Source of the DNA: Betaproteobacteria bacterium
Lineage (GTDB): Bacteria; Pseudomonadota; Gammaproteobacteria; Burkholderiales; SG8-41
Assembly: GCA_016192825.1 (NCBI GenBank)
Contig: JACPTK010000006.1
Coordinates: forward strand, 62,001-126,000
DNA length: 64,000 bases
Direction of reading: 5' to 3'
Each line of letters begins with the position of its first letter. Positions within the stretch are counted from its first letter, which is position 1. Of the stretch, positions 37,927 to 53,494 are shown piece after piece. The notes under the pieces were generated by a model that had not been told where the DNA came from, searched no databases, and worked only from the letters and a program-made list of their open reading frames with translations. The position numbers and the translations under genes are program-made.

Positions 37927-38318
37927 GCGCGCGCCCGATGCCTGCCGACGCCGATCTGCTCGCCTTGCTGATCCGGATCGACGCCAAGCTCGACCGCCTG
38001 CTCGAGGCCGTCGAGGGTGGGCGCACGCCGGCGCGATCGCTGCGGCATGAGGACCGTGCGGCGATGGCGAAAATTCTCCCGGTCCTGTCTGCAAACTTTT
38101 CCGGCAGCTTCGGGACGTGGGAGCTTATCGACGCCGCTATGCAACCCGATGCGCTCGGCGCGAATCTGCGCTTGGTGCTCGGAGGGCGCGGGGCCCGGGT
38201 GCTGGGGAAGCTATTCCAGCGCGCCCAAGATCAAGACGTTGATGGCTTCCGACTGCGCCGGGCCGGGCAAGACGGAAACGGCGCCTTGTGGGAGTGCATT
38301 GGCAATGAATCGTCCTAG
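37923..38318 (+). CDS. Hypothetical protein upstream of the capsid gene
   Basis: A 131-residue protein. It has an N-terminal coiled segment (LLALLIRIDAKLDRLLEAVE), then a globular part with FGTWELIDAAMQPDALGANL and GARVLGKLFQRAQDQDVDGF. The second part reads like a small helix-turn-helix or DNA-binding fold of phage regulators (residue context only). It lies between TerS-linked ORFs and the capsid gene. Confidence 0.5.
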   Translation: MSARPMPADADLLALLIRIDAKLDRLLEAVEGGRTPARSLRHEDRAAMAKILPVLSANFSGSFGTWELIDAAMQPDALGANLRLVLGGRGARVLGKLFQRAQDQDVDGFRLRRAGQDGNGALWECIGNESS

Positions 38319-38373
38319 CCCGCGCGCGCCGTGCGCCGGATCATGGCGTCAATTCTCAAAGAAAGGACGCAAC

Positions 38374-39441
38374 ATGATCCGACTTCAGTCAGGCGTGCAT
38401 GGCACTTTGCTTGCGGTTCTCGTTCAATGTCTTGCGCGCGCCAACGGCAACCATGGCGTCGCGGCGATGATGGCGAAGTCCGCTTTTCCCGGTTTTCCAA
38501 GCGTCGCCGAAACGCTCGGCCGAATGGGCGGAGTCCGAATGGACGACGTTCCGACTGGCGACACCACGACCGCCGGATGGGCTTCCGAACTTTCGCCTTT
38601 CAACTTGGATTCCGATTTCATCGAGGCCGTTCGCGCGAGAACCATTATCGACAGGTTGAATCAGGCGCGGCGCGCCCCGTTTTTGACCAACGTTCCCGTC
38701 GAGACCGGCCCGGCGAGCGGCGCGTGGGTCGGCGCTGGCGAACCGATTCCTGTAGGGCGAAGCACGTTTACGAATTTCGCGCTGGCGCCGTTTCGCTGCG
38801 GCGTGATCGTGCCTTTGACGCGCGAGTTGATCGACTCCCTCGCGCCGGCCGCGATTGTTGCGATTCGCGAGAGCTTGATTCGAGGCATCGCGGCCTATTT
38901 GGACTCGCAATTTCTCGACCCGTCCGTCGCTGCCGTCACCGACGTTTCCCCCGCCTCGATCACCAATGCACTTGTGCCGGTCATGAGCAGCGGCACCACG
39001 GCGGCGACGATTGCCGCCGATCTCGCCGCGATGCTCAATGCGACCGCGGATTTGGTAAACCCAGTCTGGATCGCGAACGCGCGCACCGCCGCTTACCTCG
39101 CGCTCACGCTCGGGCGGGAGGAAATCAAAATCAACGGCGGAACGCTGCTCGGCATTCCGCTCCTCACGACGCAAAGTTCGCCCGCGCCGGTTGGCAGCCC
39201 GGCAATGCCGAGGATGATTTGTCTGCTCGACCAGGACGCGCTGCTCGTCGCCGACGACGGGCAGGCCGATGTCGCGGTTTCGACCGCGACGGCGCTGTCG
39301 CAGCAGACCGCGCCGAGCTCCGGCGCGCAAAGCACCGTCAGTTTATTTCAAACGCATGCCGTCGCCGTTCGCACGATTCGGCGCATCTCGTGGCGGCGCA
39401 CGCGCACGGCGGGCGTCGTTTACATGGAAGTCAATTACTGA
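38374..39441 (+). CDS. HK97-fold major capsid protein
   Basis: A 355-residue phage capsid protein. The ORF track begins at 38017, but ATG 38374 follows GAAAGGA. HK97-family features: DFIEAVRARTIIDRLNQARR, ASGAWVGAGEPIPVGRSTFT (the usual WVGE-type motif), FRCGVIVPLTRELIDSLAPA, and a C-terminal LFQTHAVAVRTIRRISWRRT. The N-terminal segment is short, so a separate scaffold or a delta-domain may be missing. With the downstream ClpP-like protease it implies that this element builds its own shell. Confidence 0.8.
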   Translation: MIRLQSGVHGTLLAVLVQCLARANGNHGVAAMMAKSAFPGFPSVAETLGRMGGVRMDDVPTGDTTTAGWASELSPFNLDSDFIEAVRARTIIDRLNQARRAPFLTNVPVETGPASGAWVGAGEPIPVGRSTFTNFALAPFRCGVIVPLTRELIDSLAPAAIVAIRESLIRGIAAYLDSQFLDPSVAAVTDVSPASITNALVPVMSSGTTAATIAADLAAMLNATADLVNPVWIANARTAAYLALTLGREEIKINGGTLLGIPLLTTQSSPAPVGSPAMPRMICLLDQDALLVADDGQADVAVSTATALSQQTAPSSGAQSTVSLFQTHAVAVRTIRRISWRRTRTAGVVYMEVNY

Positions 39442-39452
39442 TCGAGGCGCGC

Positions 39453-39962
39453 ATGGACGTACGCGAAAGAATCGCCGCGCTGAACCGGGAATTTTCCGCT
39501 CCCGGCTGCAAGAAACCGATTTCAGAATACAACGCGCGACTCTCAGAGCTCGAGGCCGAAGAGCGACAGGAAAAAGTGTTCGCAGCGGCGCAGAAAGCCA
39601 GGCCGACGATAGACGGGCGCGTCCCGAAACCCGCGCCGGAAGTCTCGCTGGAAAACGACCCGACGCCCGTCACGCGAAAGTTTTTCATGGGAGTTATGAA
39701 GTCCGTGCTGAAAGATGTTGCCGACACGTTCAGGTCCGAGGACGCCAAGCTGCTCGAGAAACTGGAAGCGCGCATAACCGCGATCGAAAACCGCCCAACG
39801 ATGCAGTATCGCGGAGTCTGGGAAGCGGATGGGCGCTATCAACCTGGCGATGTCGTCACGGACTCAGGCTCCATGTGGCACGCCAACTGCAGCACCACCG
39901 CGAGGCCAGGCGCCTCGAGCGATTGGACGCTGTGCGTGAAGCACGGCCGTGATTTGCGATGA
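39453..39962 (+). CDS. Structural protein with a C-terminal carbohydrate-binding-like domain
   Basis: A 169-residue protein from ATG 39453. Residues 1-110 are helical and charged (MDVRERIAALNREFSAPG, and MGVMKSVLKDVADTFRSEDA). The last 55 residues read YRGVWEADGRYQPGDVVTDS, then GSMWHANCSTTARPGASSDW, the aromatic pattern of CBM5/12-type chitin-binding domains often found on phage virions. It may decorate the capsid or bind the cell surface. It overlaps the next ORF by ATGA. Confidence 0.6.
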   Translation: MDVRERIAALNREFSAPGCKKPISEYNARLSELEAEERQEKVFAAAQKARPTIDGRVPKPAPEVSLENDPTPVTRKFFMGVMKSVLKDVADTFRSEDAKLLEKLEARITAIENRPTMQYRGVWEADGRYQPGDVVTDSGSMWHANCSTTARPGASSDWTLCVKHGRDLR

Positions 39963-40204
39963 GCGCCGGGCTGGACCTTTACGACCGCCGCGTGCTGCTG
40001 CACACTTTTGTTAATGACGAAATGGCCAAGGTAGCGGACGGGCTGCGCGCGGAGCTTGAGGCGCAATTTCCGGAAGCCCCGCAATCCGTAATCGACGAGG
40101 CAATCGCCGAAGGCCGGCGGCTGATCTATCAAGAATCGCAGGCGCTTCATGCGCGAGTCGATCGCACGATTGACGGCGCGGTCAAGCGACTGGAAGGAAA
40201 ATGA
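39959..40204 (+). CDS. Small hypothetical structural-module protein
   Basis: An 81-residue, mostly helical acidic protein (LLHTFVNDEMAKVADGLRAE and VIDEAIAEGRRLIYQESQAL). It overlaps both neighbours by ATGA, so it is translated as part of the capsid block. No family recognised. Confidence 0.5.
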   Translation: MSAGLDLYDRRVLLHTFVNDEMAKVADGLRAELEAQFPEAPQSVIDEAIAEGRRLIYQESQALHARVDRTIDGAVKRLEGK

Positions 40205-40461
40205 ACACGCTCGCGCCCGGCACGATTTGCTTCCTGCGCGGTCTTGCCGACTATCCGGACCTGACCGGCCGCGTGGTCGAGGTCGCCCACCTTGTGACGC
40301 TTCCGGATTTCGGCGACGATTGGTATGAGCTGTACGCGCTTTGGATCGTCGAGCGTTTTCCGGGTCAGATGGCGCTTGCGCCGCGCCGCTGCTTGCTGCC
40401 GATCACGCCACCCGGGCCCGCGGCGACAGCCCGCAAGCCCGTGACCGTCGAGGGCTCATAG
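40201..40461 (+). CDS. Small hypothetical protein
   Basis: An 86-residue protein with a beta-rich pattern (TICFLRGLADYPDLTGRVVE, then WYELYALWIVERFPGQMALA) resembling small SH3/KOW-like barrels, ending in a Pro/Ala-rich tail. ATGA overlap with the upstream ORF. The gene is in the structural block; function unknown. Confidence 0.5.
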   Translation: MNTLAPGTICFLRGLADYPDLTGRVVEVAHLVTLPDFGDDWYELYALWIVERFPGQMALAPRRCLLPITPPGPAATARKPVTVEGS

Positions 40462-40462
40462 C

Positions 40463-41425
40463 GTGCGACTCACGGCTTCCGCGCCGGGCAAGTGGGACCC
40501 GGATTTTCGCGCCATTCGGATTTACGCGAGCACGGTTCAAGGCTTCACGCCCGCGTCGGAAAATATCGTTTTCGACGGCGGCGTGATCCCCGAGAACGGC
40601 GAGACTCTCGCCGCCGATGTGAGCGGGCTCGACCCCGGAACGACCTACTACGCGCGCTATCAACTTTTCGATCTTCTTGGCGGCGGCGACATTTCCGACG
40701 AATTTTCATTCACGACGCAGCGTGTCGTTGATCGAGCGACTCCGTACGGCCCCGACTCGACCACCTACACCAGCACCAAGACCGACGTGGCCGGCCCTAA
40801 AGTTGTCGCGATGATCGAGCACACGAATTACCCCGCGGTGCCGGCCCAATTGAGCGCTACCTTCGCCGCGCAGTTAACCGTGGGACCGCTCGATAACGGC
40901 GTCACGCAGTACTGGACGGCTATCCGCTACACCTCGAAACCGGCGTCGGACGGAACTTGCGCGCTCTCGTGGGCCGGAGTCGGCGGCTCGAAATACGATG
41001 TCGTCGGCACCGGCACCGACTTCACGCTGCTGGCGGCCAAGGACTACATATATTTTGGGCCGGGCAAGCCGCTCGCCACGGTCAGCTCGATCACCGATGC
41101 AACGCACATGCGCGTCGCGCTCTATCCAGCCAGTTCCGCGGTGGCGGGCACCGACTTCCCGGTCAGCGGCTGGACCTTTCAGGCATATCACCACACATCC
41201 GGGCTCGCGCAGCAATGCGACCCGCAGTCCGATGTCAGGGAGATGCTGGCGAGCGCGACGCAGGATATCTCCGTGCGGACGGGTTTCCCCATGGTCTTGG
41301 ACGGCGCCATTGGCGTCGCGCTTTTTGCGCTGGCGCAATCGTCAACTGGTGGTGGCGCTAGTTACTACTGCGAAGTGAAGCAATCCTCGCTCGATTCTCA
41401 GTGGGTGATAGGGTCCGGGGCGTGA
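40463..41425 (+). CDS. Putative virion protein with an FN3-like domain
   Basis: A 320-residue protein with a GTG start 1 bp after the previous stop. The N-terminal 95 residues look like a fibronectin type III or Ig-like beta sandwich (GLDPGTTYYARYQLFDLLGG, DEFSFTTQRV). The rest is beta-rich with many Ser, Thr and Gly, as in head-decoration or fibre proteins (CALSWAGVGGSKYDVVGTGT, GWTFQAYHHTSG). No tail tape-measure or baseplate gene is nearby. It could be a capsid fibre. It ends in a GTGA overlap with the protease. Confidence 0.5.
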   Translation: MRLTASAPGKWDPDFRAIRIYASTVQGFTPASENIVFDGGVIPENGETLAADVSGLDPGTTYYARYQLFDLLGGGDISDEFSFTTQRVVDRATPYGPDSTTYTSTKTDVAGPKVVAMIEHTNYPAVPAQLSATFAAQLTVGPLDNGVTQYWTAIRYTSKPASDGTCALSWAGVGGSKYDVVGTGTDFTLLAAKDYIYFGPGKPLATVSSITDATHMRVALYPASSAVAGTDFPVSGWTFQAYHHTSGLAQQCDPQSDVREMLASATQDISVRTGFPMVLDGAIGVALFALAQSSTGGGASYYCEVKQSSLDSQWVIGSGA

Positions 41426-42093
41426 GCGACTGGCACATCGGCGAGGCCAGCCTGATCGCGCGAATCGCGGGCCCGATCAAGCGCCACATGCCGGGCGAGC
41501 TGCGAGCGTTGCTCCCGTACGCGCGCGGAGAAGTGTTAGTTTTTCTGGATAGCCCTGGCGGCGACGGCGACGCGGCGCGCGAGATCCACGACATGCTGCG
41601 AGCGCATCCGCACCAGATCACCGTTTTTATCAGCGGTCACGCGGACTCGAGCGCGTCCTTGATCGCGATGGCCGGGCGGCGGATCTGGATGAGCCCCTCC
41701 GCGCGGATGCTGCTTCATAACCCCGTGCCTGGCCGTGCGGTAAAAAATGCGCCGGGCATGCGGGCGGTCGCGGACGCACAACGCGGCGCGATCTCCGCGC
41801 AACAGAGCTGGCACGGCGTGGCGAGTGTCATCAACGGCGCGATCTCCGAGGCCCTGGCGCAGCCGAGCGCGACATGGGTCGAAGAGCACGCCGCGCAGTA
41901 CGCGAAAATCTACGCTCGCCGGACGCGGCGCCCCGTATCGGAAATGCGGCGGCTGATGGAGATCGGGACCGATCTGAGCGCGCAGCAGGCGGTGGCGAAG
42001 GGATTCGCGGACCGGATCGCCGTCATTGAGCTGCCGCGCGAGGGCAGTATGGGGTGGCGCATGCCGATTTATTCACATGCGAGGCCATCATGA
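41422..42093 (+). CDS. ClpP-like head maturation protease
   Basis: A 223-residue ClpP/SppA-fold serine protease typical of phage prohead processing. I use GTG 41422, overlapping the previous stop; the ORF-track start is 41401. Key motifs: LDSPGGDGDAAREIHDMLRA (oxyanion region), ISGHADSSASLIAMAGRRIW (nucleophile Ser) and PSARMLLHNPVPG (His). The C terminus has GTDLSAQQAVAKGFADRI, common in ClpP-type phage proteases. In most phages it precedes the capsid gene; here it is about 2 kb downstream. Confidence 0.85.
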   Translation: MSDWHIGEASLIARIAGPIKRHMPGELRALLPYARGEVLVFLDSPGGDGDAAREIHDMLRAHPHQITVFISGHADSSASLIAMAGRRIWMSPSARMLLHNPVPGRAVKNAPGMRAVADAQRGAISAQQSWHGVASVINGAISEALAQPSATWVEEHAAQYAKIYARRTRRPVSEMRRLMEIGTDLSAQQAVAKGFADRIAVIELPREGSMGWRMPIYSHARPS

Positions 42094-43220: not shown

Positions 43221-43291
43221 GGCGGGGTGGCAGAGTGGTCATGCAGCGGCCTGCAAAGCCGTGGACGCCGGTTCGATTCCGACCCCCGCCT
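43221..43291 (+). tRNA. cysT: tRNA-Cys (GCA), CCA not encoded
   Basis: A 71-nt tRNA: acceptor GGCGGGG/CCCCGCC, D-arm GGCAGAGTGGTCATGC, anticodon arm CGGCCTGCAAAGCCG (GCA) and T-arm GCCGGTTCGATTCCGAC. The 3' end reads T-CCC rather than T-CCA, whereas the displaced 3' half at attR of island B reads TCCA. So CCA was probably encoded before island B integrated and must now be added enzymatically. Confidence 0.95.
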
Positions 43292-43293
43292 CC
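43250..43293 (+). repeat. attL of island B (44-bp tRNA-Cys 3' half)
   Basis: From the anticodon stem to the end of tRNA-Cys, 44 bp are repeated exactly at 54462-54505. An integrase relic follows about 130 bp downstream. Confidence 0.88.
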
Positions 43294-43418
43294 CTCCCAT
43301 TCTCGCGAAGCGCAGTAACCCTTCCTTCCCCCTCGACGGGGGAAGGATCAGAGGATGGGGGTGGTGCTCAACTTCCTCCATCCTTCGGGTCTGCGACTGC
43401 TCGGCCGCCGTGGTCCCT

Positions 43419-43604
43419 GCACGGGACAAGCTCGGCCTCAAGGACCTGCGGCTGCACGACCTGCGCCATGAGGCAACGTCCACGCTCTTCGAGAAGGGCC
43501 TGTCCCCGATCGAGGTGGCGACGATGACGGGGCACAAGACACTGAACACACTGAAGCGGTATACACACCCGAACGTCACTGAGATTGCGCGGAAGCTCGG
43601 ATAG
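43419..43604 (+). pseudogene. Integrase C-terminal relic of island B
   Basis: The frame carries the end of a tyrosine recombinase: LGLKDLRLHDLRHEATSTLF (His-x-x-Arg), ATMTGHKTLNTLKRYTHPNV (His and the nucleophile Tyr) and a TAG stop. The first Arg box and the whole N terminus are missing. A 9-bp hairpin CCTTCCCCC/GGGGGAAGG (43324-43346) lies where the body of the gene should be. It marks the tRNA-proximal end of the island. Confidence 0.8.
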
Positions 43605-43605
43605 G

Positions 43606-43820
43606 TCGCCGGGCTTGAGGCTGACGAACTCGCGACCGCCCTTGCTAGTGCGCGCCCAGCCTGCGCCGATCTCGACCTTGCCGACGAACACGCGGTAGTC
43701 GGGAGCGGAATCGCTGCGCTTCTCGACCGCGGTGATCGCGACCTTGGCCTTGAGGCCGACCGTCTGGATCGTGCCGGTGAAGCCGCCGTTGGTCTTCGTG
43801 AAGGTGCCGATGGTTGCCAT
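43606..43820 (-). pseudogene. Truncated DUF736 protein
   Basis: Starts at ATG 43820 behind AAGGAGA. It reads MATIGTFTKTNGGFTGTIQT, then APDYRVFVGKVEIGAGWART and GREFVSLK, a clear DUF736 match (ICE and plasmid proteins near conjugation genes). The conserved end (normally KLDDPSFPAPI-like) is replaced where the integrase relic begins on the other strand. The frame stays open to 43368, but that part is antisense to the integrase and not DUF736. No other conjugation gene remains. Confidence 0.7.
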
Positions 43821-44040
43821 GTGAAGTCTCCTTTCGTTTATCTCGGCCGCGCCAATCGCAGCCTCGATGGAAGTGGCAAAGCCGGCCCGGCGCCGGCCGC
43901 ACCCACAGGGCCGCAACGCAGAGGAGGACGGCCGTGACGCTGTTTTTCGGAGCACAGCGATCGCGAGGAATGGCGCAGCCAGGGGAAAAAACTGCGGCGA
44001 GCGCGAGCGCCGGCCGTTGCGGCCTCAATGGTCTTCGTGC

Positions 44041-44131
44041 AAATGCCTGACAGCGCATTTGCCGCTGTCCATTTCCCCTCTCCACTCGGGAGAGGGGGAA
44101 GGGGTGAGGGGTCGAGCGGCGTCAGGCATTT
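44041..44131. repeat. 91-bp palindromic REP/MITE-like element
   Basis: The outer arms AAATGCCTGAC and GTCAGGCATTT are perfect 11-bp inverted repeats. Inside are GACAGCG/CGCTGTC and a CCCCTCTCC/GGGAGAGGGG hairpin with a trailing GGGGTGAGGG, a word common in proteobacterial intergenic repeats. The interval 43821-44509 shows no credible gene; its ORFs are low-complexity shadows. Confidence 0.55.
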
Positions 44132-44509
44132 TTACGACGCTCGTTTGGCGACGGGGCGGCTAACTTCCATCATGAGAGGCAGCGTTGGATGCGCGGCGGA
44201 CGAAAGGAGGCTGCGGCAACGAAGGAACCGCATCGATTCGCCAGCGAGGCGCCATCTGCCCGCTGGCAAGGGCGATGACTCCGCTCTCGTGAAGAATGTC
44301 CGCGCCGTCGCATCGGTGGACGCCGGCAGGGGCGCGGAGAGGCTAGTTGGGGGTGGCAGCAGCTCGTCGCCGCACGATGAATATGCGTTGCTTGGCAACG
44401 TTATAAACTAGCCGCAACGTGGTTGCGGAGATCCCTACCAATCTTTTGAGGCTGACGCCGGTCCAGTTGGACAGCCCCGTCTCCGGCGGGACACCGTACG
44501 AGATTTGTC

Positions 44510-44665
44510 ATGACTGTTGAAACCGAAGCGAAAAGCCGAATCCTTAAGGCGGTTCACCAAACCGCCCGCGATCTTCAGGTGGCCGGATTGATCGACGAAC
44601 GGGCGGATGGTGAGCACAACGCACTGTGCCTTGCGCCATTGCCGGACTATTCAAGAGAGCAGTAA
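44510..44665 (+). pseudogene. N-terminal relic of a HigA-like antitoxin
   Basis: A 51-residue frame from ATG 44510: KSRILKAVHQTARDLQVAGL, then EHNALCLAPLPDYSREQ and TAA. It matches the N terminus of HTH antitoxins whose next residues would be the Cro/CI helix-turn-helix. The DNA-binding domain and any toxin partner are missing. Too short for the ORF track. Confidence 0.45.
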
Positions 44666-44723: not shown

Positions 44724-45884
44724 ATGGATCGGAGGCTCAAAGTACTTCTCGTCGAAGATAGTCGGACCGACGCCGAGCTCGCTCTTCACGAGTTGAAAGA
44801 AGCCGGGATGGACTGCGTCGGTCGAAGAGTGGAGACCCGCGCCGAAATGATCAGCGAGCTGGAAACCTTCGTCCCCGACGTTATTTTGGGAGACTTCTCG
44901 CTTCCCCAATTCGACGGTCTTTCAGCCCTGGAGATCGCCCGCACGAGAAGTCCGGCAACGCCGTTTATTTTTGTCTCGGGTACCATCGGGGAAGATGCGG
45001 CAATTGAAACGCTCGAGCACGGTGCCGCCGATTACATCCTGAAAACCAATCTCAAACGGCTCGCCACCGCCGTGCGTCGAGCGCTGAAAGACGTCAAGGA
45101 GCGCGCCGCGCGCGAGCGGCTGGAATCGCGGCTGAGTCGTCTGGCGCGATACGACGCCCTGACGGAACTGCTCAATCGCAGCCAGTTTCGCGATCGTCTG
45201 GGTGGGGCGATGGCGCGGGCAACCCGTAACAAGCAACTGGTGGGGGTCATGTTCCTCGATCTGGACCGCTTCCAGACCGTGAACGCGACGCTGGGTCACG
45301 GTGCAGGCGATTTCGTGCTCAAGCAGGTGGCCGAGCGCCTCGAGCAGAGCGTGCGCAAGGGCGACACGGTCGCCCGCCTAGGCGGAGACGAGTTCTCCGT
45401 GATCCTCGAGGGGCTGGGCGAAAAAGACGGGGCGACCGTGGGGGCGCAGCGGGCTCTGGAGTCGCTGTCGCGGCCGGTGCTTCTGAACGGCGAGGAAATC
45501 CGATTGACCGTCAGCATCGGCATCACCGTCTTCCCGCTCGACGCCCATGACCTCGACGCATTGCTGCGAAACGCCGACGTGGCGATGTACTACGTTAAGG
45601 AGCACGGGCGCAACAACTACCGGTTCTATTCCCCAGGCCTGGAGGCGAATAGCCGGCGCGACGCACTGCGCCGCGGCGAGATCGAGCAGAGGCTGGCGCG
45701 CCTGACGCCGCGCGAGCGCGAAGTGCTGGACCTGCTGATCGCGGGAAAAGCGAGCAAGATGATCGCCTATCTTATCGGTGCCAGCTGCCGGACCATCGAG
45801 CATCACCGCGCCAGAATCATGGACAAGATGCAGGCCGACTCCCTGCCCGAACTGGTGCGCATGGTGCTCGAGCAACGAGGCTGA
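44724..45884 (+). CDS. Response regulator with GGDEF and LuxR-type HTH domains
   Basis: A 386-residue protein; ATG 44724 follows AAGGGGGGAT. The receiver domain (KVLLVEDSRTDAELALHELK; phospho-Asp about residue 57 in ILGDFSLPQFDG) is followed by a diguanylate cyclase domain (YDALTELLNRSQFRDRLGGA; catalytic RLGGDEFSV near 220, with the inhibitory-site RKGD five residues upstream). The C terminus is a LuxR/NarL HTH (LTPREREVLDLLIAGKASKM, then CRTIEHHRARIMDKM). GGDEF and RxxD sites look intact, so it may make c-di-GMP and bind DNA. It has no kinase adjacent on its 5' side; the hybrid kinase is downstream. Confidence 0.85.
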   Translation: MDRRLKVLLVEDSRTDAELALHELKEAGMDCVGRRVETRAEMISELETFVPDVILGDFSLPQFDGLSALEIARTRSPATPFIFVSGTIGEDAAIETLEHGAADYILKTNLKRLATAVRRALKDVKERAARERLESRLSRLARYDALTELLNRSQFRDRLGGAMARATRNKQLVGVMFLDLDRFQTVNATLGHGAGDFVLKQVAERLEQSVRKGDTVARLGGDEFSVILEGLGEKDGATVGAQRALESLSRPVLLNGEEIRLTVSIGITVFPLDAHDLDALLRNADVAMYYVKEHGRNNYRFYSPGLEANSRRDALRRGEIEQRLARLTPREREVLDLLIAGKASKMIAYLIGASCRTIEHHRARIMDKMQADSLPELVRMVLEQRG

Positions 45885-45897
45885 ATTCATATAGCCA

Positions 45898-45945
45898 GAT
45901 TCCCTGCCCGAGCTGGTGCACAAGCGAACCTTATGTCGATTATAG
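45898..45945 (+). pseudogene. Duplicate LuxR-HTH tail
   Basis: Thirteen bases after the preceding stop, the frame reads DSLPELVHKRTLCRL and TAG, nearly repeating that protein's own DSLPELV tail. It looks like the end of a second response regulator gene, left by recombination between homologous genes. No upstream part exists. Confidence 0.45.
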
Positions 45946-46220
45946 TCAATACGTTGTAACTAATTTTGAGCCCCAAGCCCAGCACACTTAATGGGTACAT
46001 GTACGGATTTCCCGTGCTTGAGCACTTGTATAAGATTCATGTCGCATGCTGTGCGATGGACGCGGCCGAAACAGCGGACTTCCGCCGCGCGGCAGCGTGC
46101 GGCAAAGCTCCTACTGTTACTGATGCAACGGCACGTTTGGAGTTGGCGTGAACGGAGCATCACCTAACATTGAGCGGCCAAGCGGTAGAATTACAGGGGA
46201 AATACAGCACTTGAACCAAA

Positions 46221-46317
46221 GCTTCCGTTGAAGGGCAAACCCGACCGAAAGGCGGGGGCGCAAAGTCACCAGTCTAAAGGGTGAAAACCCTAGGACAGTG
46301 GGATCGCTAGATGGAAC
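46221..46317 (+). promoter_or_regulatory. Cyclic-di-GMP-I (GEMM) riboswitch
   Basis: The leader contains the hallmarks of the c-di-GMP-I aptamer. P1 pairs TTCCGTT (46223) with GATGGAA (46310). GGGCAAACC leads into a stem with a bulged A and a GAAA tetraloop (CCCGACCGAAAGGCGGG), then GGCGCAAAGTCACC and AGTCTAAAGGG, a second arm closed by ACCC, and GGACAGTGGGATCGCTAG. These match the order of conserved blocks in the Vc2 aptamer. It lies about 160 nt upstream of the hybrid kinase GTG. Downstream hairpins (CCGGCT/AGCCGG at 46384; CGAATGC/GCATTCG near 46403) may be the expression platform. No U-tract terminator is seen. The rest of 45946-46220 shows no gene. Confidence 0.85.
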
Positions 46318-46475
46318 TCCCGGCCCGGCGCTTCGCGGGGCCTATCTCATCCGCGTTTCCCATCCCGTTTACTGACTAGCCCCCGGCTTTCTGCAGCCGG
46401 ATTCGAATGCGCTTTCGGCGGCATTCGTCAACCCGGTGGAGGTTGCCCCAACGAATTTGCGGGGAGGGAAAGCAC

Positions 46476-49400
46476 GTGCTCAACTTGGATTTGTTTAGCC
46501 CATTGCGATGGCTGGGGCCGCCTTTGCGCGCTTTGCGGCGATTCTCCACGATCGCGCTTCCGTCAGTTTGGAATGAACAGAATCGCAGTAGTCTGGCGGC
46601 GCTTTTCACCTTCGTATCGCTGTTTGCGCTCACCCTGTGGTCTTGGCACCTCATTTCCGGAGACGTCTTGCGGATCGGACGCGAGCGGTTCGATTTCAAA
46701 GTAAGCGAGGTTCAGTTCGCGGTTGAGCAGCGCCTGCTCGCCTATGAACAGGTGCTGCGCGGCGGGGTCGCCTTGTTCGCCGCGAGCGACGAAGTGAGCA
46801 GGGACGAATGGCGCGCGTACGTGCGCACACTCCACGTCGACCGGAAATATCCCGGCATTCAGGGAGTGGGCTTCGCGGTCAGCGTGCGTCCGGCCGAACG
46901 CGAGACACACATCCGGACCATTCGATCGCAGGGCTTCCCGTCTTACAACATATGGCCAGCCGGTGAGCGCGAGGAGTATACGGCGATCATTTACCTCCAT
47001 CCCTTCGACTGGCGCAACCAGCGTGCCTTCGGCTACGACATGTTCTCTGAACCAGTGCGCCGGGAAGCCATGTCTCGCGCCCGCGACACCGGGAACACGG
47101 CCGTATCGGCCAGGGTCAAGCTCGTCCAGGAAACCGAGAAGGACGTCCAGCAGGGCTTTCTGATGTACCTCCCGGTGTATCGCAACGGCGCCGCCACAAA
47201 TGATGAGCAGGTGCGAAGGAACGCCTTTTTGGGTTATGTCTATGCCCCGTTTCGAATGAACGATTTGATGGTGGGCGTTCTTGGGCTGGAGAAGCTGCCG
47301 AACATCCGTTTTGAGATTTTTGACGGTGAAACGGCTTCGGCGGAGCACCTGATGTACGACAGCCTGATGCAATCGGCGGCGAGCAAACCGGCGTACACGG
47401 CCACGGAGGCATTCGAATTCAGCGGGCGACGCTGGACGCTTCGCTATAGCACGTTGCCCGCATTCGACGCGACGATTGACGTGCAGAAGCCCCGCTTGGT
47501 GCTGTTAAGCGGCCTGCTGATCAGCGCTTTGGTCGCAGCGGTTGTGTGGGCGCTCTCGCTGAACCGCCGGCGGGCGCGCGCCCTCGCCGACGCGAATCGC
47601 GGCCTGGAAGCCGAGATCGAGGAGCGCACCAGGCTCGCGGCCGAACTGAGGGACGCGAAGAACGCCGCCGAGGCGGCGAATCAGGCGAAGAGCGAGTTTC
47701 TGGCGAACGTTAGCCACGAGCTGCGCACGCCCCTGACGTTGGTGCTCGCGCCCCTGGAGCAGTTGCTCCGCGCACGTCACCCGTCAGCGGAATCGCGCAC
47801 TCAACTCGAGCGCGCCCAGCGCAATGCGCTGTTGCTTCTGAACCGCGTCAATGACCTTCTCGATTTCTCGAAGGCCGAAGCGGGCAAGTTCGAAGTGCGC
47901 TGGGAGGCCGTTGATCTCGGCGAACTACTTCCGCCGATCGCCGAAGACGCGGCGGCGGTCGCCGAGAGCCGCGGCTGCTCACTCACCTGCCACGTTGATC
48001 CCGAATTGGGATCGGTGTACCTGGAGCGCCGCCACTTCGACAAGATTGCACTGAATTTGATCAGCAACGCGCTCAAGTTCACGCCGGCCGGCGGACGGAT
48101 CCGCATTGAGGCTGCGGCGCTTGACGCAGAGCACTTCGAATTCGCGGTCCAGGACTCCGGTATCGGTATCCCGGCCGATAGGCTCCCGCTGCTCTTCGAG
48201 CGCTTCCGGCAAGTCGATAGCTCCGCGACGCGCCAGTACGGAGGAACCGGCATCGGGCTTGCACTGGTCAAGGAACTGGCGCAGCTGATGAATGGCCGGG
48301 TCGGCGTCAGGAGTGAGCCGGGTCAGGGTTCACGCTTCTACGTGCGCTTTCCCCGCACCAGGACCTGCGTCGGAACGCCGGATTCCTGCGTGGAGTCCGG
48401 ATCTGCGGTCGTCCCTGCCGAGATGGATGTCGCGCTGCGTCGGATTCGTTTCCGGGATGGGGGAGCTCATGAGACACGCGAGTCCGCTAACCCGCAAGCC
48501 CCGGGGGCGGTGCGCGGCGCCGCCGCGTCCCATGTTCTGGTCGTCGACGACAGCCCGGAGATGTGCAGCTACCTGGCCGAGTTGCTGAGCGAGGAGCACC
48601 AGGTCCTCAGCGCCGCCAACGGCCACGAAGCTTGGGACCTGCTTCAGCGCCATCCCGTCGACGTCGTGGTCTCGGACGTCATGATGCCGGTGCTGGACGG
48701 GTATGGCCTCACGGCCCGAATCAAGGCAAGCGCGAGTTTCGCTCACGTCCCCGTGATCCTGGTGACCGCCCGCGGCGGCCCGGACGCGGGTGCTTCGGGA
48801 CTCGATGGCGGAGCGGACGACTATATCGCCAAGCCGTTCTCGCCGCAGGAGCTGAGAGCGCGGGTACGCGCAGCGTTGCGCATGCGTGAGGTCCAGTCGC
48901 GGCTGACGAACCTGTCCCGGGAAGCGGGCATGGCGACTGTCGCCGCCGACATCCTGCATGACCTGGGCAACGTCCTGAGCGTCCTCAACGTGTCCTCGGA
49001 GGTCATCCTCGACACGCTGCGCCGATCCAAGCTGGCCAAGCTCGAAAAAGCCGCCGCGCTGCTGCAGGAACATGCGAACGATCTGTCGGCCTTTCTCGGC
49101 GAGGACGGCCGCGGCGGCAAGCTGCAAGCCTTCCTGGCTCAACTCGTCGAGCACCTTGAGGCCGAACGAGCCGTGCTGCTCAGGGAGTGCGACGTAATTC
49201 GTGACTGCACGGATCACGCGGCTATGGTTATCTCGGCGCACGAGCCGCTCGCAAGGGCCGGCAGGCTGTGCGAAATCGTTTCGGCGAACAGCCTGGTGGA
49301 GGGCGCGCTCAAGATGAAGAACGGGATCTTCGACCTCCACGGGATCAAAATCGAGCGCGATTACGCTGCAACCGCCCCGTTGGCGGTTGACCGGCACAAG

Positions 49401-49781
49401 GGGCTGCAAATTCTGTTGAACCTGCTCGCGAACGCCGTCGATGCCCTGCGCGCAGCGCAACGTCCCGACAGGCGGATCAGGCTCCGAACGACCAGAGCGG
49501 AGGGGCGCATCCGCATCGAGATCAGCGACAACGGCCAGGGCATCGAGCCGCAGCATCTCGCGCGCCTGTTCGACCAGGGCTTCACCACCAAGGCGGACGG
49601 TCGCGGCATAGGCCTGCATGCGAGCGCGAACTGGGCCCAACAGCTTGGCGGAAGGCTCTGGGCACACAGCGAAGGGCGGGGAAAGGGCGCCACCTTCATC
49701 CTCGAAATCCCGGCACTGGCGATGGACGGGCCGGGCGCGGAGGTTGCTGTCCCGGCTCACCTCGAATCTGCCGAGTCTTAG
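46476..49781 (+). CDS. CHASE-domain hybrid histidine kinase with a second ATPase module
   Basis: GTG 46476 follows GGGGAGGGAA, giving 1101 residues; the ORF track begins at 46407. In order: transmembrane helix, periplasmic CHASE domain (RKYPGIQGVGFAVSVRPAER; FLMYLPVYRNGA), second helix (RLVLLSGLLISALVAAVVWA), HisKA (LANVSHELRTPLTLVLAPLE, His about 413), HATPase (LISNALKFTPAGGRIRI; GGTGIGLALVKELAQL), receiver (VLVVDDSPEMCSYLAELLSE; Asp about 736 in VVSDVMMPVLDG), then a second HisKA-like box (AADILHDLGNVLSVLNV) and a second complete HATPase (LQILLNLLANAVDALRAAQ; GRGIGLHASANWAQQLGG). The c-di-GMP riboswitch upstream should couple its expression to the nucleotide. Confidence 0.88.
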   Translation: MLNLDLFSPLRWLGPPLRALRRFSTIALPSVWNEQNRSSLAALFTFVSLFALTLWSWHLISGDVLRIGRERFDFKVSEVQFAVEQRLLAYEQVLRGGVALFAASDEVSRDEWRAYVRTLHVDRKYPGIQGVGFAVSVRPAERETHIRTIRSQGFPSYNIWPAGEREEYTAIIYLHPFDWRNQRAFGYDMFSEPVRREAMSRARDTGNTAVSARVKLVQETEKDVQQGFLMYLPVYRNGAATNDEQVRRNAFLGYVYAPFRMNDLMVGVLGLEKLPNIRFEIFDGETASAEHLMYDSLMQSAASKPAYTATEAFEFSGRRWTLRYSTLPAFDATIDVQKPRLVLLSGLLISALVAAVVWALSLNRRRARALADANRGLEAEIEERTRLAAELRDAKNAAEAANQAKSEFLANVSHELRTPLTLVLAPLEQLLRARHPSAESRTQLERAQRNALLLLNRVNDLLDFSKAEAGKFEVRWEAVDLGELLPPIAEDAAAVAESRGCSLTCHVDPELGSVYLERRHFDKIALNLISNALKFTPAGGRIRIEAAALDAEHFEFAVQDSGIGIPADRLPLLFERFRQVDSSATRQYGGTGIGLALVKELAQLMNGRVGVRSEPGQGSRFYVRFPRTRTCVGTPDSCVESGSAVVPAEMDVALRRIRFRDGGAHETRESANPQAPGAVRGAAASHVLVVDDSPEMCSYLAELLSEEHQVLSAANGHEAWDLLQRHPVDVVVSDVMMPVLDGYGLTARIKASASFAHVPVILVTARGGPDAGASGLDGGADDYIAKPFSPQELRARVRAALRMREVQSRLTNLSREAGMATVAADILHDLGNVLSVLNVSSEVILDTLRRSKLAKLEKAAALLQEHANDLSAFLGEDGRGGKLQAFLAQLVEHLEAERAVLLRECDVIRDCTDHAAMVISAHEPLARAGRLCEIVSANSLVEGALKMKNGIFDLHGIKIERDYAATAPLAVDRHKGLQILLNLLANAVDALRAAQRPDRRIRLRTTRAEGRIRIEISDNGQGIEPQHLARLFDQGFTTKADGRGIGLHASANWAQQLGGRLWAHSEGRGKGATFILEIPALAMDGPGAEVAVPAHLESAES

Positions 49782-49796
49782 GACCAGGAGTGAGCC

Positions 49797-51905
49797 ATGA
49801 GGAGCATCAAGCCCAATAACGCTGCCGCGGAGGCCGGGGTAATGGGCCGCCGGCAGATTGCGACTTGCGCGAACCACGCCTCTTCCGGCGGAGTTCGCTC
49901 CGCGCCGATAAATGGCCGACCGCATTTGGCGGTATCTGCCGCTGTGGAAAGTACAGAAAACCATGGGGATCAAGAGAGCCCCGTCGTTCCGCGGATCCTG
50001 GTCGTTGACGATAATTCCGACATCCTGGCTCTGTTTAGCAAGATTCTTGGCGGGGGCAGCAGTACCTCGGCCCGGACACTGGAGCAGCTTGAGGCGTCGC
50101 TGTTGGGTGTCGACGTCCCGGAGATCCCCGATCAGCCCCGCTTCCAACTGGATGTGACGAACAGCGGCGAGGACGGACGTGCCAAAGCGATCGCCGCGCG
50201 CCTTGAGGGGCGCCCCTACAGGGTGGCCTTCGTCGATATGCGCATGCCCGGCGGCTGGAACGGTCTGGAAACGATCGAGGCACTGTGGGAGGCGGATCCC
50301 GACATCCAGGTGGTGATCTGCAGCGCCTATAACGACTACTCCCGGAACGAAATCGTCGGCCGGCGCGGTCGCTCGGACAACCTGCTGATCCTGCGCAAGC
50401 CGTTCGAGGCGATCGAAGTGCTTCAATGTGCTTGTGCGCTGTCGGACAAATGGTCGCTGCATCGGGAGCGCGAAGTCCGGTTGAACGAGCTGGAACAGCG
50501 AATCGAAGAGCGTACGCGCCAACTCCAGTACCAAGCGACCCATGACGCGCTCACCGGCTTGCCGAACCGCACGCTCTTCATGGATCGCCTGCAGCAGCGG
50601 ATCGCTTACGCGAAGCGTCATGGCGGGCGCATCGTGGTTTGTTTAATCGATCTGGATCACTTCAAATTCGTGAACGACAGCCTCGGACATGGCAGGGGAG
50701 ACCAGTTGCTGAAGACGGTATCCGACCGCATGTCGGGGTGCCTGCGCGAATCGGACACCATCGCGCGCTTCGGCGGCGACGAGTTCGTGCTCCTGCTGTC
50801 GGCTCCTCACGAGCCCGAAGATGCCATGCAAATCCTGCGGCGCCTGGTCGCCTCCCTGTCCCAGCCCGTCGTGCTCGGCGGGCAGGAGGTGATCGTCACC
50901 TGCAGCGTGGGCTGTAGCACCTACCCGGAAGACGGGTCGGACGCCAATGCGCTGCTCAAGTTCGCCGACGCCGCGATGTACTGCGCCAAGGAAATCGGCC
51001 GCAACGGAATCCAGGTCTACAACGATCGCCTGCGCGGCCGGATCGATGAGCGGATCAAGCTCGAATCGGAATTGCGGCGCGCGCTGGACCGCGGGCAGCT
51101 CGTGCTTGACTATCAACCGCAGGTCGATCTGCGGACCGGCCGCATCGTCGGGATGGAGTCCCTGCTGCGCTGGAAGCATCCCGAATTCGGCCTCGTCGCC
51201 CCCGGCCGCTTCATTCCCATTGCTGAGGAAATTGGCGTTATCGTGCCGCTCACCGAGTGGGTGTTGCGGCAGGCGTGCGTCCAGAACAAGGCCTGGCAGG
51301 AGGCGGGACTGCCGCCCGTACAAATGGCTGTCAACTTGTCGATGAAGCAACTGAGACGCCTCAAGCTCGACTCCCTGGTCGCCCAGTGCTTGGCTTCGAG
51401 CCGGCTCGACCCGGGCTTCCTGGAGCTTGAGGTCACCGAGAGCGCCACGATGGAGGATCCCGAAGCAACCATTCTCCTGATGCGCGCGCTCAAGAAATGT
51501 GGCGTCGGCATCACGATCGACGATTTCGGCACGGGATTCTCCAACCTGCGCTACCTCAGGCAGTTTCCCGTAGACAAGCTCAAGCTGGACGGTTCGTTTG
51601 TCCGGGACATCGCCAGCGATGCAGGCAGCCTCGCCATCGCCGACGCGATCATCGCCATGGCCCATCGGCTGAATCTCAAGGTCGTCGCCGAAATGGCGGA
51701 AACCGAGGAGCAGGTCGCGTGCCTTGTGAGTCATGGTTGCGACTACGTCCAGGGCTATTACTTCGGTCGCCCGGTCGGCGCCGACGAGTGCGCGCGGCTG
51801 TTGCGGTCAGGCCCTTTCCCGGTTCCCGGGCACACCGGGGCCGCCAGCGCTCGCGATCGGACGGCCAGAGGCTTGCAGCTTGGGGATTCCGCGAGCCGCC
51901 CCTAG
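49797..51905 (+). CDS. Response regulator with GGDEF and EAL domains
   Basis: A 702-residue protein (ATG 49797, SD AGGAGTGAG), 15 bp after the kinase, so probably its output partner. A 60-residue disordered N terminus leads to a receiver (PRILVVDDNSDILALFSKIL) that has an insertion of about 30 residues before its phospho-Asp (VAFVDMRMPGG, about 147). A coiled linker (NELEQRIEERTRQLQYQATH) joins GGDEF (TIARFGGDEFVLLLSA, with inhibitory-site RESD) and EAL (motif variant GMESLLRWKHPEFG; VTESATMEDPE; DDFGTGFSNLRYL; VAEMAETEEQ; GCDYVQGYYF). Both cyclase and phosphodiesterase residues appear present. Its TAG shares CTAG with the convergent next gene. Confidence 0.88.
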   Translation: MRSIKPNNAAAEAGVMGRRQIATCANHASSGGVRSAPINGRPHLAVSAAVESTENHGDQESPVVPRILVVDDNSDILALFSKILGGGSSTSARTLEQLEASLLGVDVPEIPDQPRFQLDVTNSGEDGRAKAIAARLEGRPYRVAFVDMRMPGGWNGLETIEALWEADPDIQVVICSAYNDYSRNEIVGRRGRSDNLLILRKPFEAIEVLQCACALSDKWSLHREREVRLNELEQRIEERTRQLQYQATHDALTGLPNRTLFMDRLQQRIAYAKRHGGRIVVCLIDLDHFKFVNDSLGHGRGDQLLKTVSDRMSGCLRESDTIARFGGDEFVLLLSAPHEPEDAMQILRRLVASLSQPVVLGGQEVIVTCSVGCSTYPEDGSDANALLKFADAAMYCAKEIGRNGIQVYNDRLRGRIDERIKLESELRRALDRGQLVLDYQPQVDLRTGRIVGMESLLRWKHPEFGLVAPGRFIPIAEEIGVIVPLTEWVLRQACVQNKAWQEAGLPPVQMAVNLSMKQLRRLKLDSLVAQCLASSRLDPGFLELEVTESATMEDPEATILLMRALKKCGVGITIDDFGTGFSNLRYLRQFPVDKLKLDGSFVRDIASDAGSLAIADAIIAMAHRLNLKVVAEMAETEEQVACLVSHGCDYVQGYYFGRPVGADECARLLRSGPFPVPGHTGAASARDRTARGLQLGDSASRP

Positions 51906-53494
51906 GTTTCGGGGCTCAGCAGCGTAGTCATCTCCTCAAAGGGCAGCGGCTTGCTATAGAGAAACCCCTGCATCTCGTCGCAGCCGAAAAGGCGCAGGAC
52001 GTTTGCCTGGTCCTCCGAATCAACACCCTCGGCCACGACGGTCAGCTTCAAGGAATGAGCCAGCTCGATGACCGTGCGGAAGAGGCTCATGGTATCCGGA
52101 TCCGCCAGCATCGTAATGACGAACGACCGGTCGATCTTGAGTGAATGCACGGGCAGCTTGGCCAGGTATGCGAGCGAGGAATAGCCGGTCCCGAAATCGT
52201 CGATCGCGATGCGAACGCCGAGGCCCCGGACATTCTTCAGCTTGTCGATGTTGCCCTGAACGTCCTCCATGACGACGCTCTCGGTGATCTCCAGATCGAT
52301 ACCTGTCGGAGCGATACCCTCCATGATCGCCCGTTCGACGGTCCCGACAAAGTCGCGCTGTCGCAACTGTATTGACGAAACGTTTACCGCAATTCTTGGC
52401 GCTGGGAGCCGGGCCTCGGTCCACCTGCAGTGATCGAGGGACGCTCGATTCATCGCCCAGGATCCGACTTCCAGGATAAGACCGGTTTCCTCCAGCAACG
52501 GGATGAATTGCACGGGAGGTACGAGGCCGAGTTCGGGGCTCCGCCACCGGATCAGCGCCTCCACTCCCGCGATTTTCCGCGTCTTGAGGTCGACCTTCGG
52601 CTGGTAGTGCAGCACGAACTCCTCCTTTTCCAGCCCCTGCCTCAGCTTGTTTTCCAAGGCCAGCTTCTCCGCCACCCGTGCGGTCATCTGCGGGGCGTAG
52701 AACAAGTAGCGTTCGCCGCTGGTCTTCGCCTTCTTGACCGCTGCTTCAGCGTGCTTGAACAGCGTTTCGGCATCATCGCCATCAGCGGGGAACAGCGCGA
52801 TGCCGGCCTTTGCCGAGACGCGGAGCTCCGTCGCATGAAGCCGGTAGGGCTGACCAAACACCGTTCGCGTGTGCGCCTCGACGATCCGGGCAAGCTCGTC
52901 CTCCAGGCGAATATCCGGGAGTAAGACGGCAAACTGATCGGCCCCGACGCGCGCAACGGCGCCCGCGTCGCCGACGGCTTTCGCCGTGCGTTGGGCCACT
53001 TGCTTGAGCAATTCGTCGCCCGCCGTCCGACCGAGCGAATCATTGATGGTCTTGAATCGTTCGATGTCCGTCAGGAGTAACGCAAGCGCCCGCGGTCGTT
53101 GGGCTCCGGCGTGAACGAGCTGGCCCACCCTCTCCAGAAAGAGGGTGCGATTCGCCAGCCCCGTCAATGAATCGTAGTAGGCGAGATAGGCGAGCTTTTG
53201 CTCTTTTTCGAGATGGTCCAGCGCGAAGGCGATGTCGCCGACCAGCTCGCGCAACAGCTTGATCTCTTCTTCATCAAAGAAGCCGCGTTCCCCCGCGTGC
53301 AGCACCAGAACCCCGGCAGCCTCGCCGGAAACGATGAATGGCAGCACCGCCAGCCCATTCGCCTTACGACGAACGAGTGGTACAAGGCCGCTCAACTCGG
53401 CGACACGTACTGGCTCTACGTCGTGTGGGACCCGCTCGGCAAGCCGGACCGCGAGCCGGTGCGGATTCGGAACCCCGTGAAGCACCTCGATCAC
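51902..53494 (-). CDS. GAF-GGDEF-EAL protein, 5'-truncated, degenerate cyclase
   Basis: The ORF has 530 codons, but true homology starts near 53360: the first 45 codons are antisense to a plus-strand DUF3883 relic. What remains is the second half of a GAF domain (LAVLPFIVSGEAAGVLVLHA; FFDEEEIKLLRELVGDIAFA), a GGDEF domain whose active site is GADQF (VARVGADQFAVLLP), hence not a cyclase, and a full EAL domain (GVEALIRWRSPELGLVPP; LEITESVVMEDV; DDFGTGYSSLAYL; VAEGVDSEDQ). It could still be a phosphodiesterase if translated from an internal or antisense-derived start; otherwise it is a pseudogene. Confidence 0.75.
   Translation of the reverse strand: MIEVLHGVPNPHRLAVRLAERVPHDVEPVRVAELSGLVPLVRRKANGLAVLPFIVSGEAAGVLVLHAGERGFFDEEEIKLLRELVGDIAFALDHLEKEQKLAYLAYYDSLTGLANRTLFLERVGQLVHAGAQRPRALALLLTDIERFKTINDSLGRTAGDELLKQVAQRTAKAVGDAGAVARVGADQFAVLLPDIRLEDELARIVEAHTRTVFGQPYRLHATELRVSAKAGIALFPADGDDAETLFKHAEAAVKKAKTSGERYLFYAPQMTARVAEKLALENKLRQGLEKEEFVLHYQPKVDLKTRKIAGVEALIRWRSPELGLVPPVQFIPLLEETGLILEVGSWAMNRASLDHCRWTEARLPAPRIAVNVSSIQLRQRDFVGTVERAIMEGIAPTGIDLEITESVVMEDVQGNIDKLKNVRGLGVRIAIDDFGTGYSSLAYLAKLPVHSLKIDRSFVITMLADPDTMSLFRTVIELAHSLKLTVVAEGVDSEDQANVLRLFGCDEMQGFLYSKPLPFEEMTTLLSPET

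Follow-up and report, generated by a model that had tools for sequence, protein, structure and literature searches.

A single gene of the window (the whole stretch of DNA that was analysed, 64,000 nucleotides) was found to encode a REC domain, a GGDEF domain and a LuxR-type HTH in one protein, designated P0001. This architecture, which the sequence-only reading of the same DNA had proposed, was confirmed by translation, Pfam and AlphaFold2. We suggest, with a probability of roughly 0.42, that P0001 may be a phosphorylation- and c-di-GMP-gated transcription factor derived from a diguanylate cyclase.

P0001 is predicted to be a protein of 386 amino acids read in one unbroken frame (Table 1); the ATG at position 44724 is preceded by AGGGGGGAT and opens straight into the REC fold, while the open frame itself extends upstream of this codon. 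All of the REC phosphorylation residues were found to be present (the E11/D12 acidic pair, the D57 phosphoacceptor, S85 and K107), and a GGDEF domain follows, as in the PleD/WspR class. The HTH is full-length, with a recognition helix reading RTIEHHRARIM against RTVExHRAxxM (Pfam; alignment), and follows a linker helix of the FixJ type that starts near residue 304 (alignment; PDB FixJ matches). The AlphaFold2 model, for which the input was a 37-row alignment, had a mean pLDDT of 92.3 and showed well-formed REC and GGDEF domains and an equally well-formed HTH of four helices, with a long helix (residues 107-142) connecting REC to GGDEF and a second helix (residues 304-325) connecting GGDEF to the HTH. 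The top full-chain fold matches were the REC-GGDEF cyclases WspR (3bre, 3i5a), DgcR (6zxb) and PleD (2wb4); none of the 50 fold matches listed, judged from their descriptions, paired a GGDEF domain with an HTH.

Table 1. Features of P0001 and its surroundings, in positions of the window.
Feature	Position	Strand	Basis and remarks
REC-GGDEF-LuxR HTH fusion gene P0001	44724..45884	+	Translation, Pfam, AlphaFold2
REC domain of P0001	44742..45074	+	Residues 7-117; Pfam Response_reg 7e-17
GGDEF-HTH block common to the window and L006:6589-7352	45111..45871	+	blastn, 85% DNA identity over 766 bp
GGDEF domain of P0001	45144..45617	+	Residues 141-298; Pfam 2.6e-47, profile 1-161/161
Altered active-site positions Q184 (PleD K332) and A188 (PleD D336)	45273..45287	+	GGDEF comparison
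I-site RxxD (R211-KG-D214)	45354..45365	+	Site completed by R165 and R243
GGDEF motif	45381..45395	+	P0001 residues 220-224; translation
LuxR/GerE HTH (FixJ-type) of P0001	45699..45866	+	Residues 326-381; Pfam 2e-16, profile 2-57/57
Relic copy of the HTH 3' end (45832-45861)	45893..45922	+	83%, 30 bp; 61 bp downstream; one frame reads PDSLPELV
Imperfect palindrome, core GTACATGTAC	45981..46018	.	Speculative operator candidate; weak
Sigma-70-like promoter match just 5' of the riboswitch	46164..46191	+	Consensus scan; weak
c-di-GMP-I riboswitch aptamer	46224..46311	+	70.2 bits, E = 1e-11
CHASE-HisKA-HATPase-REC-HATPase hybrid histidine kinase	46476..49781	+	Pfam; riboswitch-led
REC-GGDEF-EAL gene, next on the same strand	49797..51905	+	Pfam
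GAF-GGDEF-EAL gene, convergent	51902..53494	-	Pfam

A genome-contig scan identified one further GGDEF-HTH fusion, with the domain order PAS-GGDEF-HTH, in a Rubrivivax MAG (locus L006). DNA similarity between this locus and the window was confined to the block given in Table 1 (blastn), so what the two loci share is the GGDEF-HTH block, preceded by PAS in L006 and by REC in P0001; gating by REC is thus not a conserved feature of the two fusions. A shift in GC3, from 0.659 in the REC part to 0.825 in the block, coincides with the block border. The Ka/Ks ratio between P0001 and its L006 counterpart was 0.31 for the block, 0.31 for GGDEF and 0.26 for the HTH (Ks 0.38), and values of about 0.3 indicate that both domains have been preserved by selection since the two fusions split.

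The rarity of the GGDEF and LuxR HTH pairing, also part of the sequence-only reading, was borne out: among about 1,800 sampled Pseudomonadota genomes the fusion was found only in this genome and in the Rubrivivax MAG. No other fusion was detected in 74 genomes of the family, 399 of the order, 369 of the class or 399 of the phylum, nor in 22 genomes from the family to which the sister clade of the HTH belongs, nor, with the GGDEF-HTH block as query, in 401 genomes drawn from the family of the Rubrivivax MAG. Matches to a junction query (residues 255-386) covered the GGDEF side or the HTH side and never both in the order, class and phylum samples and the 22 genomes, and the idea that the fusion is common in relatives was rejected on this ground. 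These genome searches were of samples with prefilters, other phyla being covered by a peptide-pattern scan only; to call the fusion rare is justified, while 'unique' goes too far. There was no relative in IMG/VR, and the best of the plasmid matches listed carried EAL or GGDEF-EAL protein annotations or none at all; spread by phage or plasmid was rejected accordingly. Terms such as GGDEF-LuxR or GGDEF-HTH occurred in none of the open-access papers searched.

Upstream of P0001 lie a tRNA (43221-43291), a tyrosine recombinase represented by its C-terminal part, a minus-strand DUF736 frame and a short truncated frame (44510-44665), and the remnants at 43221-44665 suggest a degraded mobile element. 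At the other end, the relic at 45893-45922 is probably a rearrangement scar. Frames at 38017-42093, near this tRNA, look phage-like, which suggests a prophage remnant. These flanks (integrase fragment, DUF736, truncated frame and HTH relic), and the lack of the fusion in any family relative, are what might be expected of a non-functional or mis-assembled chimera, produced by rearrangement beside the mobile element or by an assembly error. We consider such an origin highly improbable, since the junction is found again in an independent MAG (85% identical DNA, omega about 0.3), and P0001 has whole domains, uninterrupted by stops or frameshifts. Chance or artefact was rejected for the complete domains and the second, independent copy. 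The proviso that this might be a recent fusion of neighbouring genes conserved nowhere else did not hold either: the GGDEF-HTH block is present in a second lineage as well, where purifying selection has acted on it, and a recent event restricted to this genome was rejected.

The GGDEF domain had been read as looking intact and as a possible source of c-di-GMP. The GG[DE]EF motif does stand, as do the metal ligands (D179 and the GGDEF acidic residues), the guanine contacts (N187, D196), K292 and R296; in PleD numbering D327, N335, D344, E371, K442 and R446 are retained, of which D327, N335 and D344 are reported to be essential (PMC7288161). The wider active site is altered, the near-invariant K332 and D336 of PleD being replaced by Q184 and A188. 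Among 52 comparison GG[DE]EF domains, which were search matches of the fusion itself and not a random draw from the GGDEF family, 51 had K and one R at the K332 position and all 52 had D at the D336 position; P0001 and L006 have Q and A, a pattern of loss that rests on these two fusion sequences. In L006 there is, in addition, a change of the metal ligand D327 to G and of H340 to Q; the metal-ligand loss is confined to L006, whose cyclase activity has probably been lost, and P0001 carries the two active-site substitutions. In the fusion at L006:6100-7365 the GGDEF motif reads intact despite D327->G, so that the motif alone would mislead annotation.

Synthesis of c-di-GMP by P0001 is doubtful given Q184/A188 and the further loss in L006. 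K332 has been described as a transition-state stabiliser (PMC12943098) and, in one review, as a phosphate contact via the main chain (PMC7288161); if the contact is through the main chain, Q may be tolerated there, and with the metal ligands, guanine contacts, K292 and R296 kept, P0001 may have residual or full activity. A serious rival, if on balance an unlikely one, is the idea of the sequence-only reading, an active bifunctional 'trigger DGC', a diguanylate cyclase and phosphorylation-dependent transcription factor in one, product-inhibited at its I-site and feeding the downstream riboswitch. The motif, ligands, contacts and I-site, the intact REC and HTH, and the adjoining c-di-GMP riboswitch, for which the genome gave no second copy, would all suit such an enzyme, but it would have to work with Q and A where 52 of 52 comparison domains have K/R and D, and the second fusion shares both changes and has lost a metal ligand as well.

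The inhibitory site proved to be as intact as had been supposed. It comprises R165, R211xxD214 and R243 in P0001, a complete I-site of the kind found in PopA-like receptors, in which RKGD (211-214) ends five residues ahead of the GGDEF motif, and all four residues (R313, R359, D362 and R390 in PleD numbering) are kept in both P0001 and L006. This retention while the catalytic pocket drifts, together with the constraint on GGDEF (omega 0.31), argues against a plain phospho-regulated FixJ-type factor whose GGDEF domain is a dimerisation spacer, neither making nor sensing c-di-GMP; we regard that arrangement as improbable, though the decay of the active site, seen in the two fusions alike, and the slightly stronger constraint on the HTH (0.26 vs 0.31) would agree with it.

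The origin of the HTH was traced through its closest matches. In an order-wide search the best HTH-side matches began at about residue 306, within the linker, and those that were translated were FixJ-type REC-HTH regulators; the HTH and linker of P0001 also matched the NCBIfam FixJ model and PDB entries 5xso and 1x3u. Among 19 foreign neighbourhoods surrounding such matches, 5 (L135, L136, L137, L139 and L141) had a REC-HTH gene followed directly, in the same orientation, by a GGDEF-EAL(-REC) gene, and the HTH tree joined the two fusions as sister, with moderate support (87/85), to a clade composed mostly of these operon regulators. At L137 the REC-HTH gene is also preceded, at a distance of 41 bp, by a GGDEF-EAL-REC gene, and we infer that a deletion between neighbours of this kind would yield a GGDEF-HTH fusion. 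The GGDEF tree placed the GGDEF domain of the fusion no further than as sister to L006, being too weakly resolved to indicate a donor; in the same tree the REC-GGDEF-EAL gene of the window (49797) clustered with the operon GGDEFs (94/92, long branch).

The same order of FixJ-type REC-HTH and GGDEF-EAL(-REC) genes recurs at the five foreign loci and at L134 in the genome of P0001 itself (C122:38000-55000), and thus in several genomes of one taxonomic order; in most of these loci a histidine kinase lies nearby. It is possible that this gene order represents a conserved c-di-GMP operon that is without a riboswitch.

The riboswitch leader predicted downstream of P0001 was identified as a c-di-GMP-I aptamer, 340 bp beyond the gene and the sole copy found in the genome. 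It leads a CHASE hybrid kinase with two HATPase-like domains, the open frame of which begins at 46407, with a probable GTG start at 46476 and GGGGAGGG in front. The 29 other riboswitches examined in the family had no kinase of this sort paired with them in the surrounding 1.5 kb or so, where one REC ORF only was seen, and the kinase itself had no family match at E <= 1e-150. The palindrome at 45981-46018 had no copy at the other fetched loci. The kinship of the HTH with regulators beside GGDEF-EAL genes makes a local c-di-GMP operon a plausible target, and on the same ground P0001 may control the riboswitch-kinase operon, one possibility raised by the sequence-only reading.

The complete domains, the Q and A shared by both fusions, the retained I-site, the low Ka/Ks, the precedents of PopA and PdeL and the kin of the HTH together favour the reading of P0001 as a c-di-GMP-responsive transcription factor. 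That it binds c-di-GMP, that catalysis is lost, and what its DNA target and kinase partner would be, we infer as follows. D57 of REC would be phosphorylated by the neighbouring CHASE hybrid kinase or by another kinase, and phosphorylation would promote dimerisation via the helix that joins REC to GGDEF, as happens in WspR and DgcR. With its cyclase activity weak or absent owing to the two replaced active-site residues, the GGDEF domain would act chiefly as a receptor for c-di-GMP through its intact I-site. Bound c-di-GMP would alter the geometry of the dimer, and the linker helix of the FixJ type (304-325) would relay this change to the LuxR HTH, which would gain or lose its hold on DNA. A local c-di-GMP operon would be the likely target, perhaps the promoter of P0001 itself or that of the riboswitch-kinase-GGDEF-EAL genes. 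More generally, and tentatively, the I-site of an impaired GGDEF domain may have become the ligand pocket of a FixJ-type HTH, with REC or PAS as a second input.

A 2016 review of trigger phosphodiesterases asked whether diguanylate cyclases could also be trigger enzymes, with binding at the I-site steering a direct output (PMC5052742), and a protein that unites a GGDEF domain, an intact I-site and a DNA-binding domain in one chain opens this question to a direct test. If the proposed reading is true, it would offer a simple evolutionary path from a signal-making enzyme to a signal-reading transcription factor, and would place protein and RNA sensing of c-di-GMP within one gene cluster, beside the only riboswitch found in the genome.

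Several known systems share parts of this arrangement. In the WspR/DgcR/PleD-type cyclases REC and GGDEF are likewise joined by a helix, but these have no HTH, and PleD has K332 and D336 where P0001 has Q and A. The HTH and linker helix of P0001 are of the type seen in FixJ/TtrR-type NarL-family regulators; in these REC is joined directly to the HTH, whereas in P0001 the GGDEF domain lies between. VpsT/CsgD-type LuxR regulators combine REC, a LuxR HTH and c-di-GMP control, the last of which is proposed for P0001, and bind the ligand by a W[FLM][TS]R motif (PMC10333796); binding of this type was excluded for P0001, which lacks the motif and contains no tryptophan. SLUN_31535 of Streptomyces lunaelactis has, like P0001, a c-di-GMP-turnover-type domain with altered catalytic residues and a C-terminal LuxR HTH (PMC6205966), but the domain is HD-GYP instead of GGDEF, an unrelated signalling domain. 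PopA, the REC-REC-GGDEF receptor of Caulobacter, resembles P0001 in its REC and GGDEF domains, kept I-site and altered active site, and binds c-di-GMP via the I-site of a degenerate GGDEF domain (PMC5052742); it differs in that the GGDEF motif itself is degenerate, there is no DNA-binding domain and the output is proteolysis. Finally, in the E. coli 'trigger' phosphodiesterase PdeL (YahA) an EAL domain is coupled to a LuxR HTH, and the protein binds the promoter of its own gene at an imperfect palindrome (PMC5052742). Both proteins carry a c-di-GMP turnover-type domain and a LuxR HTH in one chain, GGDEF replacing EAL in P0001; c-di-GMP-controlled transcription has been shown for PdeL and is proposed here for P0001. 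PdeL differs in having a domain that degrades c-di-GMP, an N-terminal HTH and no REC domain, and by this analogy P0001 would, on the best reading, be the GGDEF mirror image of PdeL.
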